From a virus, in the IMG/VR virus record IMGVR_UViG_3300024308_000053, positions 1 to 29,694 of that record: DNA of 29,694 nt; one strand, given 5' to 3'. Shown here in pieces: positions 1,731 to 28,634 of this stretch. Numbering within the stretch: the first letter of the stretch is position 1; every line of letters starts with the position of its first letter. Under the pieces are notes generated by a model that was given only the letters and a program-made list of their open reading frames with translations, did no database searches and was not told the origin of the DNA. A program made the position numbers and the translations under genes.

Positions 1731-4025
1731 TTAGTATCCTGGTAGCCCGCGTGTATTGCGGCGCGATTTAGAAATATCAGAATTGCTATCCTGCAAAGCG
1801 CGGGAGACTGTTTCGCTGATGATAACACGTAACCGGCCTTCGTCGTCACGTTCCGTAGTTGCACTGTCAATGCGCCCGGTCGTGTTGTTGACAATCACCA
1901 CGCTGTCATTCCCGCTGCGTTTATTATCTTCACCCATAATCTGGCGCATCTGAGCGGCGGTACGGACACGGGAGGCACCGGCGGGCATGATAACTTCTGC
2001 GCGACCCCGCTCGGCAATCGTTGACGCCTGCCCCGCGGCCAGATAACCCCCTTGCTCACGGGCAGAGCGAATCTTCGCTACGTTAGCCAGACCAGCGGCA
2101 ACGGCAGCGGCAGCCGCCACCGGAGCCGCAATCCACCCGACAATAGGAATGGCTGCCGCTGACTGAAACGCCGCCACGGCACCTACATACGTCTGCATGA
2201 TGGCATTAGCAATGGCGAAAGCCTTATACGCCTTATTGCCTTCGCCAAGAGCAGTTTTTAAGTCATCGGTTGTTTGACCAAGTATTCTGGCGTACTCATT
2301 GCGTCTCTTTTTGTCATAATTCTGCGCTATTCCGCGTTTCGCTTCCTGGTATTCTTCTTCGCTAATTAAATCCTCGGCCCGGAATTTATTAGCCATGTCT
2401 AGCTTCTGCTTTTCCTGAATCTCCAGCAAATCAAGCTCGACCGCATTTTGACCCAAAATCTGGGCCATGAAGTCTTCGCCTTTCTGCTGCTTCTCTTTCC
2501 GCTCTTTTTCGCGTTTGTCGAGTTCTTCCTGGCGTGCAGTGTCTGCCTCCAGCATAATTTGCGTTTTAGCGTCTTCGTACTGCTTATCCGACAGCGCACG
2601 TAATTCATGGAACTTATTCAGCTTATCCAGCTTCTGCTGTTCCTGCGCATCAATAGCTTTCAGCTCGTCCTGCTGCTGCCGTGCGAGCGTATCCAGAAAA
2701 TCCTGCGCTTGCTCCCTGTTACGTTTTGCCTCATCCGCGGCCTTTTTGGCGGCTTTTGCAGCATCAGGGTCCGGCTGTGCTGACGGGGAGCCGGGCTTGT
2801 TCTTAACGAGTTTGGAAAGGTCTACCTGTTGTTTAGCCCGTTCGTCGTACTCTTTACGCAGATTTTTGCTGGCGTCGACCTGGTCTTTGAAAGCCTGGAT
2901 AGTGTCGTCGCGCTCTTTATGGATAATATTGATTCGTGCGGCCAGCGCGCGCTCAATTTCTTTCGATTCGGCGGCGTAAGTGTCGGAGAAGCCAGACTCG
3001 CTGAACGGGTTGAGCGCATTAGCTACGGCGACACCGACAGCCCCGGCTTTCTTGACCAGCGCGTCAAACTCGTAATACACCTCTTTCATTATTGCGGCAA
3101 CATACGGCGGCAAGGCCGCAATGCCGTCAGAGATATCCGTCGCTATCGTGTTGCCGAATGGGGAAATGGCTTTGGCAGTGTTGTTGAAATCTTTGTTTAG
3201 GTCGTTCAGCCAGTCAGAGATAAACGAGAAAGAGTTATCGAACAGGTCTGTCCAGGCGCTAATCTCGGCGGATAGCTGGCCTGATGCGATTAAGCCCGTC
3301 ATCTCGTTAATGGCGGTTTCCGCGTTTCGCACCTGCTCAGCAACCAGGTCACCAAATCCAGACTGCGCAACGCTTAATTTGAACGCCTCAAAACTGTCTT
3401 CCAGGCTGGAGATAGCCCCGTCAAGCGTCTTGGCACGCTGCTCCATCGCACCGGCGAACTGGGTGTTACCAATCGCCAGTAAATATTCCTGGATGGCTTC
3501 AGAGTTGTTTTTTACAGTTGTGGTGACGCCCTGGAACGTGAAGGCGATATCATTGCCCTGTTTACTGGACTTGATACCAAACTCTTTGAGTCGCTCAAAT
3601 TCACCAGTAGAGGCGTCCGCGACGGCCTCAATCATCTGGTTCAGGTCTTTACCCATCGCTGCGGCGGTGTTGCCGTAGGAGACTAGGGCTTCCTGCGACG
3701 GTTTAAGACCCAGCGCCACCAGTTTTGTAAAACCCTCAACGGCCTGGTTAAGGCCGTAAGGTGTATCTTTGGCGAACTGTTGCAACACGCCAAACGCTTT
3801 CGCGGCGTTTTCGGTGCTGCCCGTCATGGTGATAAGTCCGGCGTTTAACTTGTCAAAGTTACGCTGGGACTCCACCAGTGAGCTGAATACCTCTTTAGCC
3901 GCAGCCAGACCACCCACGGCAGCGCCAGCCGCCAGGGCTGCTTTACCGAGGCCCCTCAGAGCGCCGGAGGCATTGTCAACCCCTTGCGTTGTTACCCTGA
4001 CTATCAGGCTGGCAATATCAGACAT
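1731..4025 (-). CDS. Tail tape measure protein
   Basis: At 764 residues this is one of the two longest genes in the window. It lies directly after the tail chaperone pair, the fixed place of the tape measure. Residues 1-220 resemble the lambda-family tape measure N-terminus (VTTQGVDNASGALRGLGKAA, then the TPYGLNQAVEGFTKL region). Residues about 390-590 are a long charged coiled coil rich in K, E, Q and D. Near residues 610-670 is a strongly hydrophobic Ala-rich segment that could enter the host membrane during DNA ejection. At about 0.15 nm per residue the length predicts a tail near 115 nm. Its ATG overlaps the end of the T reading frame by 8 bases. Confidence 0.93.
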   Translation of the reverse strand: MSDIASLIVRVTTQGVDNASGALRGLGKAALAAGAAVGGLAAAKEVFSSLVESQRNFDKLNAGLITMTGSTENAAKAFGVLQQFAKDTPYGLNQAVEGFTKLVALGLKPSQEALVSYGNTAAAMGKDLNQMIEAVADASTGEFERLKEFGIKSSKQGNDIAFTFQGVTTTVKNNSEAIQEYLLAIGNTQFAGAMEQRAKTLDGAISSLEDSFEAFKLSVAQSGFGDLVAEQVRNAETAINEMTGLIASGQLSAEISAWTDLFDNSFSFISDWLNDLNKDFNNTAKAISPFGNTIATDISDGIAALPPYVAAIMKEVYYEFDALVKKAGAVGVAVANALNPFSESGFSDTYAAESKEIERALAARINIIHKERDDTIQAFKDQVDASKNLRKEYDERAKQQVDLSKLVKNKPGSPSAQPDPDAAKAAKKAADEAKRNREQAQDFLDTLARQQQDELKAIDAQEQQKLDKLNKFHELRALSDKQYEDAKTQIMLEADTARQEELDKREKERKEKQQKGEDFMAQILGQNAVELDLLEIQEKQKLDMANKFRAEDLISEEEYQEAKRGIAQNYDKKRRNEYARILGQTTDDLKTALGEGNKAYKAFAIANAIMQTYVGAVAAFQSAAAIPIVGWIAAPVAAAAAVAAGLANVAKIRSAREQGGYLAAGQASTIAERGRAEVIMPAGASRVRTAAQMRQIMGEDNKRSGNDSVVIVNNTTGRIDSATTERDDEGRLRVIISETVSRALQDSNSDISKSRRNTRGLPGY

Positions 4026-8894: not shown

Positions 8895-9083
8895 TTATTC
8901 CTCGAACGTGCGACGACGGCGTTTACGTTCGACTCCGCCACCGTTGTTATGCGCGTCTTCGTTATCCGGCTGCGTTTCTACCAGGTCGTCAGGCAGCGCG
9001 TCGCCGCGTTGAGGGATTAACTTACCGTCAACTTCAACGAGGCCGTTGTAGCGCTCGCGCTTTACGTAATTGTCGTTTGCCAT
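8895..9083 (-). CDS. Small protein of the capsid-neck region, unknown function
   Basis: This 62-residue product has a short beta-like start (NDNYVKRERYNGLVEVDGKLI), an acidic middle and a very basic stretch ERKRRRR near the end. It lies between the Ig-domain and connector genes with an AGGA site. The basic tail could touch packaged DNA, but nothing more can be said. The hairpin at 9098-9115 lies just before it. Confidence 0.6.
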   Translation of the reverse strand: MANDNYVKRERYNGLVEVDGKLIPQRGDALPDDLVETQPDNEDAHNNGGGVERKRRRRTFEE

Positions 9084-10865: not shown

Positions 10866-11573
10866 TTATTTCCTCAGGGCTTTTAGTTGCCGCTCAAATT
10901 CGGCGGGATTGGTACGGTTCAATTCGAGGCGCTCGGCCTCTGTCATATCCTTAAACGCTGGTGCGGCCCCGCCGCTTTTGCCGCCGGAAGCCCCGCCGCC
11001 GGAAGCTGCATTTGCTTTAATCAAATGCGAAAATGCTTTGTGCTCGCGCAAGTATTTGCGGAACTGTTCAGGGTCTGTCGTGATAACGTTACCATCTGCG
11101 CCGATGAACTTCGTTACCACGTCTTCCCCGTCAAACTCGGTTTTAACAAACGGCGCCAGGATGTCTACTGCTTCCGGTGTAATAAAATCACCGGCGAAGC
11201 TACCAAGTACCGCTTTACGCTCGCTGCCGAGTACACGGTTGGCCAGCGCAGAATACTTCTCTTCTTTCTCTTTCAGTACAGGCTCATACTGGCTACGAAT
11301 CGTCTTTTCGAACTCGTCCATCTTGCCGGCGGACTTCAGCGCTTCCTGGTGCGCCTGCTGGCGTGCTTCTTCAGCTTCCTTCGCCTTGCGTGCTGCTTCT
11401 TTCTTCTCGGTCAACAACGCTTCATTATTGGCCTTCAGGCCAGACACTTCTTTCTCGACAGCTTCGGCAATCATCTTCTGCACTTGTTCTGCCGTGAATG
11501 TGGTTGCGCCGCCTGCTGGTTTAAGGTCGTCTGGTGCTTCTTCTTGAAGCGGAAAACGTAAAAAACGATTCAT
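10866..11573 (-). CDS. Scaffolding protein
   Basis: This protein has 235 residues. Residues about 25-105 are a coiled coil (TAEQVQKMIAEAVEKEV ... EEARQQAHQEAL). Then come a small domain, a Gly/Ala/Ser linker (GGGASGGKSGG) and a charged C-terminal helix of the kind that binds capsid protein. This is the usual build of internal scaffolds and its place before the capsid gene agrees. The AGGGG ribosome site lies within a short hairpin (GTCC/GGAC, 11583-11593), which may damp translation. Confidence 0.9.
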   Translation of the reverse strand: MNRFLRFPLQEEAPDDLKPAGGATTFTAEQVQKMIAEAVEKEVSGLKANNEALLTEKKEAARKAKEAEEARQQAHQEALKSAGKMDEFEKTIRSQYEPVLKEKEEKYSALANRVLGSERKAVLGSFAGDFITPEAVDILAPFVKTEFDGEDVVTKFIGADGNVITTDPEQFRKYLREHKAFSHLIKANAASGGGASGGKSGGAAPAFKDMTEAERLELNRTNPAEFERQLKALRK

Positions 11574-11582
11574 AGTCAGTAT

Positions 11583-11616
11583 GTCCCCTGGACGTTAGTA
11601 GCCGGGCCACCCGGCT
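11583..11616 (-). other. Tandem hairpins in the scaffold/capsid leader
   Basis: On the minus strand the leader folds as AGCCGGG TGG CCCGGCT (11600-11616), then GTCC AGG GGAC (11583-11593). The second contains the scaffold ribosome site. Both have three-base loops, like the pair at the terminase leader (18882-18923). Confidence 0.5.
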
Positions 11617-11722: not shown

Positions 11723-11872
11723 ATGACGACTTTAATTGTAATGGAATTTGAAACCAGCAAACCTGAATACCGCCAAATGACAATGGAACAGGCATATAAG
11801 CTTGCGTCACGCGGGTCTTTCTACAAAGCACAAATTATCAGCGAAGATGGGGTTGTTGAATATGAGTTTTAG
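11723..11872 (+). CDS. Small protein of unknown function (49 residues)
   Basis: It begins after a very strong AGGAGGTG ribosome site, just after a near-consensus promoter. The product (MTTLIVMEFETSKPEYRQMT ... ISEDGVVEYEF) looks like a small alpha/beta fold: strand, helix, strands. The strong expression signals argue that it is a real early gene, perhaps acting on the host. It overlaps the next gene by 11 bases. I recognise no family. Confidence 0.65.
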   Translation: MTTLIVMEFETSKPEYRQMTMEQAYKLASRGSFYKAQIISEDGVVEYEF

Positions 11873-12206
11873 AAATAACCTAAAAAATCACATTAAAATT
11901 TTCGGCGAAGATGGCCTGCACTCATGGAATGCCGGATATGATGTCAACGATGATATTTTCATACACAAAATAGTAAGAGCAACTCGCCGTGAAGTTAAAT
12001 CCGGAGATATATTAAAGATAAGAGATAACGGCGTTATCGTTGCAGTAGAGAAAGTATTAGGGGTATTTCTTATAGTTGTGGCCGTAGACCCGGCGCTAAG
12101 AGACGCGGCACCATACAGGGCGGCCGGAGAAGGTAAGACGGGAAAGTATGTGTACGGTAGAGTAAAAATCAATAAAGCCCATGTCGATACCATAAAAGCC
12201 CCGTAA
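11862..12206 (+). CDS. Small basic protein of unknown function (114 residues)
   Basis: I chose the ATG at 11862, which overlaps the gene before it; a longer frame back to 11802 lies inside that gene. The sequence starts MSFRNNLKNHIKIFGEDGLH and continues with mostly beta segments, such as SGDILKIRDNGVIVAVEKV and GKYVYGRVKINKAHV. Net charge is positive. It ends close to a two-way terminator. No family is recognised. It forms a two-gene plus-strand cassette between the capsid and spanin genes. Confidence 0.6.
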   Translation: MSFRNNLKNHIKIFGEDGLHSWNAGYDVNDDIFIHKIVRATRREVKSGDILKIRDNGVIVAVEKVLGVFLIVVAVDPALRDAAPYRAAGEGKTGKYVYGRVKINKAHVDTIKAP

Positions 12207-25490: not shown

Positions 25491-25519
25491 ATATTACGAC
25501 ACTAATACTATGATTGCAA
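25491..25519 (-). promoter_or_regulatory. Sigma-70 promoter for 25462-24564
   Basis: TTGCAA (25514-25519), 17 bases and TAATAT (25491-25496) are seen on the minus strand, 29 bases before the start codon. It lies next to the iteron region. Confidence 0.8.
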
Positions 25520-25617
25520 GTAGCAGCCAACATAATTCTTTGCGCTGCCGGTAGTCACTTTTATCTTTGCTGCCGTGTTGCATGCTTAAATGAATAATCA
25601 TCAAGATGGATGGTGGG

Positions 25618-25818
25618 TCCGACAGACCACCACCATTCATCGTTAGATGATAGTGTCGGAAATTCTGTCGGAACCATCGGTAACCCGCATGGATGCTGAA
25701 TCCGACAACTTTCCGACAGGATGTCGGCAGCAACTTTTGTCGGGGGTTTTGTCGGAACATATTTATTCACTTTTTCTGCATAACTATTCACAGCCAACAT
25801 TGTCGGAACGTGTCGGCT
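25618..25818. repeat. Iteron cluster, candidate replication origin
   Basis: Ten copies of TGTCGG lie within 201 bases: seven on the plus strand (starting at 25654, 25666, 25722, 25738, 25750, 25801, 25811) and three inverted (within 25618-25625, 25701-25707, 25711-25718). Many extend to TGTCGGAA. They come in pairs 10-12 bases apart, about one helix turn. An AT-rich stretch with two ATTCAC motifs (25758-25793) divides them. The cluster lies just after the primase-helicase gene, as origins often do beside initiator or helicase genes. No convincing gene lies in 25520-25829. Confidence 0.75.
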
Positions 25819-25829
25819 GAGCGTTGTTT

Positions 25830-28121
25830 TTAGTCATCTAAATCATCTGTTGGCTGCCCATCTGTGAAATCGTTAGGGCCTACCGGGATGCGGAATTGCA
25901 TATGCCGGTCTTCTTCGCCGTTAAGTAACCGTCCTTTTTTATCGCGTCCGTAACAGATGATGTTGCGTTCTGCCAGGGCCATAATCGCCGGTCTGCGCCT
26001 ACCGCCGTCGCCCGACAGTTTGATAATCTCGGAGACAGAATAACCCTGTGGCCGGTCTGATTCGTTCTGCAATTCCTCAAGCGCGGCGTAAACTTTCGCC
26101 TCATCTCCTTTCAGCATCGGGCCGTCTTCCTTCGTTTTCTTCGCCGCCAGGCGGCCTGCATCGGCAGCCTTTGAGTCGAACGGCAGCAATGCAACAGGTA
26201 TAAGAACGAGCGTCTCGTCACGTGGTGCCGATTCCAGTGGTTTTTGGGTGTAACCCTCTAAAAACATTGAGAAATCAGGTGCTGCCCGGTCCGATTGAAT
26301 CCCTAGTATAAAGTCATTGTGTGTCTCGGTAATTTCAATCTTACACTTAGCCAGCAGGAAGCCGCGGGGTAACTGTTTGGTGCTGCCGCGTGCCTTCTCC
26401 ATGTAAAAGTTCAGGCGCAGCGGTTCAGACTCGTCCGGCTGTTCAATGAAGTAGACGAAATCAACCGCACCATGCAGCGCGCCGGAGCCGCGACCGATGC
26501 GGCGTGTGCCTTTCTCGGATTTGGCCGGGTGGTGTACGACACCTGCGCACGCGCCAGTTTCATCGGCAATCGCCTTGAGCGCAGACGCCACCGTACCCAT
26601 ATCAGAGGAACTGTTCTCGTCGAACGGTTTATCCGACAGCGCAACCGACTGGTTCAGAGAGTCGAACGCCACCAGGCCGACCGGGTCAGTGCCTGCCGTC
26701 GTTCGGATGTGACGGATAATGGCGCGCTGGCCGGCCTTGCTGGTGATGTCCCAGCCTTCGGATTGCAGGTCGATGATGTGCAGCCAGTCCAGGTCGTCGC
26801 CGTAGGTCTTCTGTAGGGCCTGTTTGCGGTCCAGTGTCGTGCTGCCGCCCTCAGCATCGAAATAGAAGCTGTGCGACCTGATAACCTTCGCACCGGCAAA
26901 CGGCAGCCCGGCGGACGCACACGCCATCTGGCCGAGCAGGAAGAACGATTTCCCGATGTTTGACTCACCGACCAGCTCGAACGTCGATTTGAAGTTGTAC
27001 AGGCCGTCGATAATCGGGTCGCGCTTGGTGAACAGCGCGCACGGCTCGTCCATCAGGTCTTCGTCCTGGCACACGTGCGCGTCCAGACCGTCCGCCGCAG
27101 CCTCTACCTGGTTACGGTGGACGTGCTCTACCTCGTCCTCATCCATGAAAGGGAACAGCTCGGCAATTTGCTTCTTCGAAATGTTATGCGCTTCCGGTAA
27201 ATAACTATCTGGCACGCCAACAAGTTGAAGCATCATGTGCTGGTGGCTGTTCAGGTTGCGACAGTGCGCGTGCTGGCAGACGAAACGCACTTCCGGGTGC
27301 AGTGAATCCGGCAGCATAATAGCCGTATCACCCTCGGTGCCGTCGCGGCCGTCGGTGTGGCTCATGTGGTTCGGGCACTGGATAGCCCAGCCGCGCCCCG
27401 ACGGCATCATCTCCAGACCCATCTCGAACGCCCAGCCTGCGATGGCCTGGCTATTCTCCGACGCCATGAGTAGTGATTCTTCCGACCATACCGTGTTGCC
27501 GGACTCGCTCGGTGGCTCGTAGCCATTGTTTAGCATACGGGTAACGCGCACGGGCTTGCCCTCGCCTTCCCAGAATTCCGCGCCATACGGAGGAACGAAC
27601 ATGATGCGGGCGCGCTGGTTAGCAGTCATATCGACCCCGGGAGCATCAATCAATCCGAGCTGGTCAAGCATAGCGTGCTGCACATGCCAGATTTCATCGG
27701 CGGCCATGGGTACGTTAGTTGGGATAAGGAAACGTACGGCGCGCAGTTCCTCATCACCTTTTACAGGGTGGCGGTCGCCGCTGGTGCTGTGCGCGAAGTA
27801 AGCCAGGCCCAAATCGTTAAGTTGGCGCGTGACTTTGCGGACTTCTCGGGTAGACACACCGTCCAGGTCGATGAAGAGGATGGAGCGGCCCAGCACGGTG
27901 TCGTTAGAGCGTACCTTATCAACGGCAGCGGCGATGTAGTTCTGCTGTTTCTTCTTGCGGTCGTACTGCTCTCTGGTTTCGTCGCCTGAGAACTCAACGC
28001 CCAGGCTTGGCTCGTCGATGTAGTCCATCATCTCGGCGATGAACTCCGGCCAGGTCATATCGTAGTTTTTGGCGCGACGGGATTTAGCATCGTTGCCAAT
28101 GGAGAAAAGAATGTTTTCCAT
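25830..28121 (-). CDS. Primase-helicase (AEP-like primase plus RepA-like helicase)
   Basis: This protein has 763 residues. Residues 80-180 look like an archaeo-eukaryotic type primase: ILFIDLDG (Asp85, Asp87), AHSTSGDRH (near 110), RFLIP and GVDMTANQRARIMFVPP. Residues 249-293 carry a zinc-type C..H...C..H..C set. Residues 385-392 are Walker A (GESNIGKS) and 483-488 Walker B (LVAFDS), with YFDAEGG (420-426) between, as in RepA/DnaB-like hexameric helicases. The end (near 690-745) resembles a winged helix. It should make primers and unwind DNA at the origin. The start has AAAGGT. Confidence 0.88.
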   Translation of the reverse strand: MENILFSIGNDAKSRRAKNYDMTWPEFIAEMMDYIDEPSLGVEFSGDETREQYDRKKKQQNYIAAAVDKVRSNDTVLGRSILFIDLDGVSTREVRKVTRQLNDLGLAYFAHSTSGDRHPVKGDEELRAVRFLIPTNVPMAADEIWHVQHAMLDQLGLIDAPGVDMTANQRARIMFVPPYGAEFWEGEGKPVRVTRMLNNGYEPPSESGNTVWSEESLLMASENSQAIAGWAFEMGLEMMPSGRGWAIQCPNHMSHTDGRDGTEGDTAIMLPDSLHPEVRFVCQHAHCRNLNSHQHMMLQLVGVPDSYLPEAHNISKKQIAELFPFMDEDEVEHVHRNQVEAAADGLDAHVCQDEDLMDEPCALFTKRDPIIDGLYNFKSTFELVGESNIGKSFFLLGQMACASAGLPFAGAKVIRSHSFYFDAEGGSTTLDRKQALQKTYGDDLDWLHIIDLQSEGWDITSKAGQRAIIRHIRTTAGTDPVGLVAFDSLNQSVALSDKPFDENSSSDMGTVASALKAIADETGACAGVVHHPAKSEKGTRRIGRGSGALHGAVDFVYFIEQPDESEPLRLNFYMEKARGSTKQLPRGFLLAKCKIEITETHNDFILGIQSDRAAPDFSMFLEGYTQKPLESAPRDETLVLIPVALLPFDSKAADAGRLAAKKTKEDGPMLKGDEAKVYAALEELQNESDRPQGYSVSEIIKLSGDGGRRRPAIMALAERNIICYGRDKKGRLLNGEEDRHMQFRIPVGPNDFTDGQPTDDLDD

Positions 28122-28251: not shown

Positions 28252-28413
28252 TTATCCTGTAGTTTTATCGCGAGTTGCTCTGTAAGAATCCCGCCACGCC
28301 AACCACGTATAAAGAGATAATTCTTCCCATTCCTCATCTGAAAATGTTTTGCGAGGGAAATTCTTATTTAACCAGGCAATGTGCAAATCCGCTAAATCAG
28401 AATCAGTAAACAT
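28252..28413 (-). CDS. 53-residue acidic protein coupled to the regulator
   Basis: It starts at the ATG at 28411-28413, which shares one base with the stop of the HTH gene (TAATG). MFTDSDLADLHIAWLNKNFP, then TFSDEEWEELSLYTWLAWRD: a small helical, Trp-rich, acidic protein. Coupling to the regulator suggests it works with it, for example as its anti-repressor or partner. This is inference. Confidence 0.62.
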   Translation of the reverse strand: MFTDSDLADLHIAWLNKNFPRKTFSDEEWEELSLYTWLAWRDSYRATRDKTTG

Positions 28414-28634
28414 TATTCCACATCTCCTTCCGCCAGCCAGCGCGGGTCTACTTCCAGCACATCGGCCATCTTGAACAGCAGGTTCACATCGGCAATATTG
28501 TTACGCCCACAGCACAGGTGGCTGATTGCCGATTGTGTCACGCCGCAGCGCTGCGCCATCTCAATTTGCATAATGCCTTTCGCACGCATGGTTTCACGAA
28601 GGCGGGTACTAAACTCGGTCGGTTGTGGCTTCAT
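28413..28634 (-). CDS. Cro/CI-like HTH regulator (XRE family)
   Basis: This protein has 73 residues. Residues 8-67 are a typical XRE helix-turn-helix: STRLRETMRAKGIMQIEMAQ, RCGVTQSAISHLCCGRNNI, then LLFKMADVLEVDPRWLAEG. The recognition helix is about 33-41 (TQSAISHLC). It is as short as Cro and has no CI-type protease domain. It is divergent from the plus operon at 28780, so it probably controls that promoter and its own. The start has AGGAG. Confidence 0.92.
   Translation of the reverse strand: MKPQPTEFSTRLRETMRAKGIMQIEMAQRCGVTQSAISHLCCGRNNIADVNLLFKMADVLEVDPRWLAEGDVE

Follow-up and report, generated by a model that had tools for sequence, protein, structure and literature searches.

The stretch of DNA analysed here (the window) is a virus record of 29.7 kb, IMGVR_UViG_3300024308_000053, which carries portal and tape-measure genes and contains a dense array of the 6-bp word TGTCGG located after the stop codon of a gene for a replicative helicase-primase. 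The helicase-primase shares 82–86% identity with its counterparts in Salmonella phages (FSL SP-031 among others) and 74–76% with those in phiEap-2, Hafnia phage TS33 and Pantoea phage AH01. Judged by these similarities, the window represents part of the genome of a Guernseyvirinae-type siphophage. The record is incomplete (29.7 kb compared to 39–46 kb in relatives), so that a second array elsewhere in the genome of this phage is possible. A plasmid search for homologues of the helicase-primase yielded one distant full-length match, while all other matches were confined to the helicase core.

All ten copies of TGTCGG listed in a previous sequence-only reading of the window, seven direct and three inverted within 201 bp, were found at the positions given there: 25654, 25666, 25722, 25738, 25750, 25801 and 25811 on the plus strand and 25619, 25702 and 25713 on the minus strand. 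The spacing of word pairs by 10–12 bp was reproduced in a recount, and the perfect palindrome reported for 25713–25727 is present as an interrupted one (CCGACA-GGA-TGTCGG). Two small open reading frames (ORFs) overlapping the cluster on the minus strand, 25494–25760 and 25561–25800, have no Pfam match, and a PHROGs scan, applied to the former of the two, gave no match either. TGTCGG occurs 28 times in the window (15 ± 3.6 expected), with ten of the 28 copies in the cluster. The question raised by the same reading, whether the word is equally frequent elsewhere, is answered in the negative by densities of 37 per kb in the cluster and 0.61 per kb outside. When the window was simulated with a first-order Markov model and clusters of 201 bp were evaluated, the densest TGTCGG cluster contained one to three copies (200 runs) and the densest cluster of any 6-mer four to five, never more than five (60 runs). 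Besides TGTCGG and the overlapping GTCGGA, no 6-mer forms a cluster of at least six copies in the window.

The AT-rich stretch noticed earlier inside the cluster was confirmed (71.8% A+T compared to 47.7% for the window). Read on the minus strand, it comprises two GTGAATAnnTATG-like units (25758–25770 and 25779–25791) 21 bp apart, forming a 13-bp direct repeat which is conserved among relatives with different words. Two characteristics of iteron origins, a dense repeated word that is rare elsewhere and an adjacent AT-rich element as candidate for unwinding, are therefore both found in the window. A pattern search of viral contigs for the AT-rich element returned known relatives and apparent chance matches. 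The hairpin at the helicase-distal end of the array has a z-score of −2.9 when folded as single-stranded DNA, and a stable stem-loop was detected in the origin region of 14 out of 14 phages folded in a scan using RNA parameters.

In almost all close relatives, the same elements are found behind the stop codon of the helicase-primase gene: one word or a pair of words, the AT-rich double repeat (GTGAATAGTTATGCAgaaaaAGTGAATAGTTATGC and its variants), closely packed words in both orientations about 8–16 bp apart, a G+C-rich hairpin and ACGGCAGC/ACGGCAAC. About nine groups of relatives have a different word at the same place and in the same architecture. CCGACA is shared by the window and relative L004, while CGGACA is found in L001, L002, L013 and L017, GGGGAGA in L003, L011, L018 and L020, AGGGATA in L006, GGGGATG in L029 and a mixture of GGGAGA and GGGATG in L012. 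Dhillonviruses carry CGGGACA, Klebsiella phages TCGCAA, Serratia phages GCGGAA (few copies) and Edwardsiella phage eiAU-183 GCAACCAAC. Counted in the window and in four complete genomes, each phage's own word reached 17–37 per kb in the array and at most about 0.6 per kb elsewhere, and the words of other phages showed no peak in a given phage's array. No array was found downstream of the helicase gene in Kagunavirus-type relatives (helicases 25–31% identical), nor any 6-mer cluster at the threshold used in the complete genome of K1G; the system therefore does not extend to the whole subfamily.

The helicase-primase matches phrog_3228 over its full length (E = 1.2e-302, residues 1–735). AAA_25 was detected in 26 of 26 relatives, with the Walker A motif GESNIGKS at residues 385–392; the protein thus has a RecA-fold motor of the type of RSF1010 RepA, the match to the RepA structure itself (PDB 1g8y) being weak (E = 0.025). 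The N-terminal domain matched BT4734-like_N in two of the 26 relatives. Neither an SF3 helicase nor a Toprim-type primase was detected in Pfam and PHROGs scans of the helicase-primase, and no DUF927 or D5_N/Primase_Cterm helicase was found in the helicase-primase scans. The last ~85 residues are predicted to form a winged helix (helices at residues 673–687, 696–703 and 709–718, and a beta wing), modelled with a predicted local distance difference test score (pLDDT) of about 80–90 both within the full-length protein and as domain alone. Apart from the winged helix and the N-terminal domain, the full-length model is of low confidence. Structural matches of the winged helix include those of ORC1 and Cdc6 and many others; P4 alpha was not among the matches listed, which is uninformative either way.

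Table 1. Features of the array locus in the window and positions of paired arrays in two Dhillonvirus relatives
Feature	Position	Strand	Basis
Replicative helicase-primase, 763 aa, proposed initiator	25830..28121	-	phrog_3228 and AAA_25 matches
AAA_25 (RepA/RecA-type) helicase motor	26517..27035	-	Pfam, E 5e-21
N-terminal primase-like domain, conserved D85xD87 and H118	27552..28121	-	putative primase assignment
C-terminal winged helix (residues ~671-745), proposed word reader	25887..26111	-	structure prediction, covariation
Predicted recognition helix, residues 709-718 (RRPAIMALAER region), varying with the word	25968..25997	-	alignment, model
Iteron array, ten TGTCGG/CCGACA words	25619..25816	both	motif count and simulations
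AT-rich candidate unwinding element	25757..25793 (within 39-bp AT-rich stretch 25756-25794)	-	composition, repeat conservation in relatives
Long imperfect hairpin at helicase-distal array end, one inverted word in loop region	25597..25651	-	folding
ACGGCAGC just past hairpin, conserved in relatives, member of genome-wide motif family	25569..25576	-	motif comparison
ATGTTGGCTG adjoining AT-rich element	25791..25800; second copy 25524-25533	-	conserved in several relatives
L063, two origin-like arrays	11826-12175 and 39598-39960		
L067, two origin-like arrays	11214-11597 and 40178-40657		

In an alignment of close relatives, residues 1–660 of the helicase-primase (the body) are near-constant, whereas the C-terminal ~85 residues vary in step with the word. 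Phages with different words showed body and winged-helix identities of 91 and 59% (window and L001), 91 and 51% (window and L011), 97 and 42% (L001 and L011) and 96 and 50% (L004 and L013), compared to 78 and 85% for the window and L004, which have the same word. A GGGNxRRR insertion ahead of the recognition helix was found only in CGGACA phages and is shared there by three winged helices that diverge from one another (L001/L002, L013 and L017). Partial Mantel tests with 13 representatives gave r = 0.45 (p = 0.001) between same word and winged helix when the body was controlled for and r = −0.20 between same word and body when the winged helix was controlled for; the words had been assigned by eye from k-mer tables beforehand, and the test includes the linkage of domain and array. 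In sliding comparisons, the helicase body and the downstream flank of the window resemble L001/L011, whereas a piece between about −270 and +225/270, counted from the stop codon, resembles L004. L013 combines the body of L004 with foreign sequence inside nearly identical limits. The breakpoints of both mosaics lie at the junction of body and winged helix and just past the hairpin. Winged helix and array evolve and swap as one cassette of ~0.55 kb.

Dhillonviruses harbor a complete second copy of the array (AT-rich element, words and hairpin) with their own word, located ~17 kb away ahead of the tape-measure gene; the search for this second copy gave matches in 155 records. In LM40P1, both copies show drift of the word to ACGGGACA, which has gone further in the helicase-side copy. 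Since the distant array carries the phage's own word, gene linkage is not the whole explanation of the covariation. The second copy is paralogous to the first and hence provides strong but non-independent proof.

Taken together, the array is very probably a replication origin, and the adjacent helicase-primase, as a self-loading initiator, would recognise it through its winged helix. A candidate origin beside the primase-helicase had been suggested in the sequence-only reading, and this is supported by the origin-like layout, kept at the same place across Guernseyvirinae and Dhillonvirus relatives, and by the covariation of the word with the predicted winged helix of the adjacent protein. The RepA- or P4-alpha-like initiator proposed there holds in part: the C-terminal winged helix plus iterons are P4-alpha-like, but the motor is AAA_25 (RSF1010-RepA/RecA type), the primase-like N terminus is diverged and SF3 or Toprim matches are absent. 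As the covariation suggests, the C-terminal winged helices of the helicase-primase would bind the 6-bp words, and protomers on direct and inverted words could assemble hexamers around the AT-rich double repeat and melt it. The AAA_25 motor would thereby be loaded as fork helicase. The N-terminal primase-like domain of the same polypeptide might then prime, possibly at ACGGCAGC beyond the hairpin, which is the weakest step of this scheme.

Several observations weigh against an origin read in this way. The structural matches of the winged helix are generic, and the winged helix of L013 is just 50% identical to that of L001 despite the same word. L007 retains the winged helix but has no clear array next to it, only a degenerate region displaced ~1.4 kb downstream, and Escherichia phage bob (L042) retains the words although a duplication of ~82 bp breaks its winged helix. 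The extremes of the GC skew, suggested earlier as a check, agree roughly with the array in phiEap-2 and SP-031 but disagree with it in SSL-2009a and AH01. In the complete genome of SSL-2009a, the second array has more words than the helicase-side array, so that the latter need not be the main origin there. Finally, part of the covariation is linkage, because winged helix and array adjoin. The GC skew, which is ambiguous and confounded with gene strand, was dropped as proof of an origin.

The linkage leaves room for the array to be read by a host factor or another phage protein, with the covariation reflecting hitch-hiking of an array merely linked to the winged-helix coding end. This would agree with the single exchange unit of ~0.55 kb shared by both, and yet it appears quite unlikely, given that the unlinked second arrays of Dhillonviruses bear the matching word and that the rest of the initiator, 660 residues, keeps up to 97% identity between phages with different words. 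Moreover, the AT-rich element of the window, located between the gene and the main array, is L001/L011-like though both sides are L004-like; the element is short, and the adjoining word has the CCGACA form. This mosaic and the Dhillonvirus second array provide evidence beyond linkage. The words might also be operators of an XRE regulator (28413–28634) encoded upstream of the helicase-primase, the array being a transcriptional control region; the short direct and inverted repeats in an intergenic region would fit this. We regard this as highly improbable: the XRE protein is 97–99% identical in the window, L001, L002 and L011 despite three different words and just 39% identical between the window and L004, which share the word, and no XRE match was found in the Dhillonvirus loci tested, which carry arrays. 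For these reasons, the XRE regulator was excluded as reader of the words. In addition, a search of the array region for sigma-70-type promoters gave none. Iteron-like arrays occur also at centromere-like sites, and there are two array copies per Dhillonvirus genome, but a partition, packaging or maintenance site is very doubtful, as the annotations of the complete relatives examined include no partition gene, no prophage relative was found in a search of bacterial genome contigs, and both the place beside the helicase-primase and the covariation with it favour replication.

Some further motifs were observed at the putative origin and in its relatives. In several relatives, ATGTTGGCTG (reverse complement CAGCCAACAT) is found beside the AT-rich element and ahead of the next gene. 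The E. coli DnaA-box consensus is TTATNCACA; TTATTCACT and CTATTCACA in the AT-rich element (25764–25792), compared by eye, are each one base off this consensus. L007 contains tandem GGCAGCAT repeats (8930–8990) beside its displaced, degenerate origin-like region. The ~82-bp tandem duplication of bob, at about 3600–3700 in the winged-helix coding region, alters the C terminus and is either a sequencing error or a natural mutant.

The motif ACGGCA[AG]C (ACGGCARC) is present at 32 sites in the window, about one per kb, for example at 25569–25576 (minus strand) and 26180–26187 (plus strand). Its frequency in these phages is about 7–13 per 10 kb, compared to 2.1 in phage T1. Within ORFs, it exceeds synonymous-codon shuffles about 2.4 to 7-fold; phage T1 also exceeds its shuffles, but with few sites. 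On the arm downstream of the helicase, the sites are strand-biased (29:3 in SSL-2009a, 26:8 in phiEap-2, 17:4 in SP-031 and 28:14 in AH01), and on the other arm of these four genomes they are unbiased. Near the array of the window, the bias changes direction, and one copy lies just past the origin hairpin. The bias and the gene strand are inseparable here, since the gene strand switches at the same places. ACGGCARC is a possible primase-recognition or fork-polarity signal.

More tentatively, the natural series of winged-helix/word pairs on a near-constant body may amount to a readable recognition code, with origin specificity swapped repeatedly as a cassette of ~0.55 kb and with ACGGCARC as a genome-wide, strand-biased primase signal; we would put this at somewhat below an even chance. 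If true, cassette swapping perhaps avoids initiator competition in co-infection or an origin-directed attack. The locus offers a specific candidate origin, a specific candidate reader and natural swaps on bodies that are 91–97% identical, by which origin specificity and the retargeting of a DNA-binding domain become directly testable. Dhillonviruses appear to hold two arrays per genome, which is open to test in E. coli K-12.

In the record of Sodalis phage SO-1 (GQ502199), both Dhillonvirus loci are annotated as repeat regions A and B, described as direct, inverted and palindromic and as similar to each other; the annotation as shown connects them neither with the winged helix of an initiator nor with the swapping of words or the arrays of Guernseyvirinae. 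A search confined to the open-access literature yielded no paper that treats the origin, the initiator or the swapping of words in phages of Guernseyvirinae or Dhillonvirus. In Staphylococcus aureus pathogenicity islands (SaPI), short iterons immediately follow the gene for the Rep helicase, whose C-terminal domain is described to read them (PMC7581432, citing Ubeda et al. 2007), and the scheme proposed above would work in this way. The short iterons observed here are likewise located directly downstream of the helicase gene, and C-terminal reading is suggested by the covariation. Unlike the SaPI Reps as characterised in that source (DUF927 or D5_N/Primase_Cterm, satellites), the present system has an AAA_25/RepA-type motor, is found in phages and uses at least eight alternative words. 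The helicase of P4 alpha belongs to SF3. P4 alpha combines a Toprim-type primase, a helicase and a C-terminal winged helix binding origin repeats in one protein (PMC4234260). A multi-domain protein with a C-terminal winged helix, here by structure prediction, and origin repeats are common to both systems, but neither a Toprim-type primase nor an SF3 helicase was detected in the present one. Membership in the P4 alpha group was rejected on primase type and motor, the latter being AAA_25/RepA-type. For the RepA/ori modules of the phage-inducible chromosomal island-like elements (PLE) of V. cholerae, specificity was demonstrated by swap experiments (PMC8263062). Their covariation, as reported there, parallels that of word and winged helix, whereas PLE RepA is described with a RepA_N N-terminal domain and ~30-bp iterons, on a satellite and not a phage. 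In RSF1010, the helicase is RepA, and a separate protein, RepC, reads the oriV iterons (PMC4234260). The RepA-type motor and an iteron origin are thus shared with RSF1010, whereas in the phages described here the proposed reader, the motor and the primase-like domain are united in one polypeptide.
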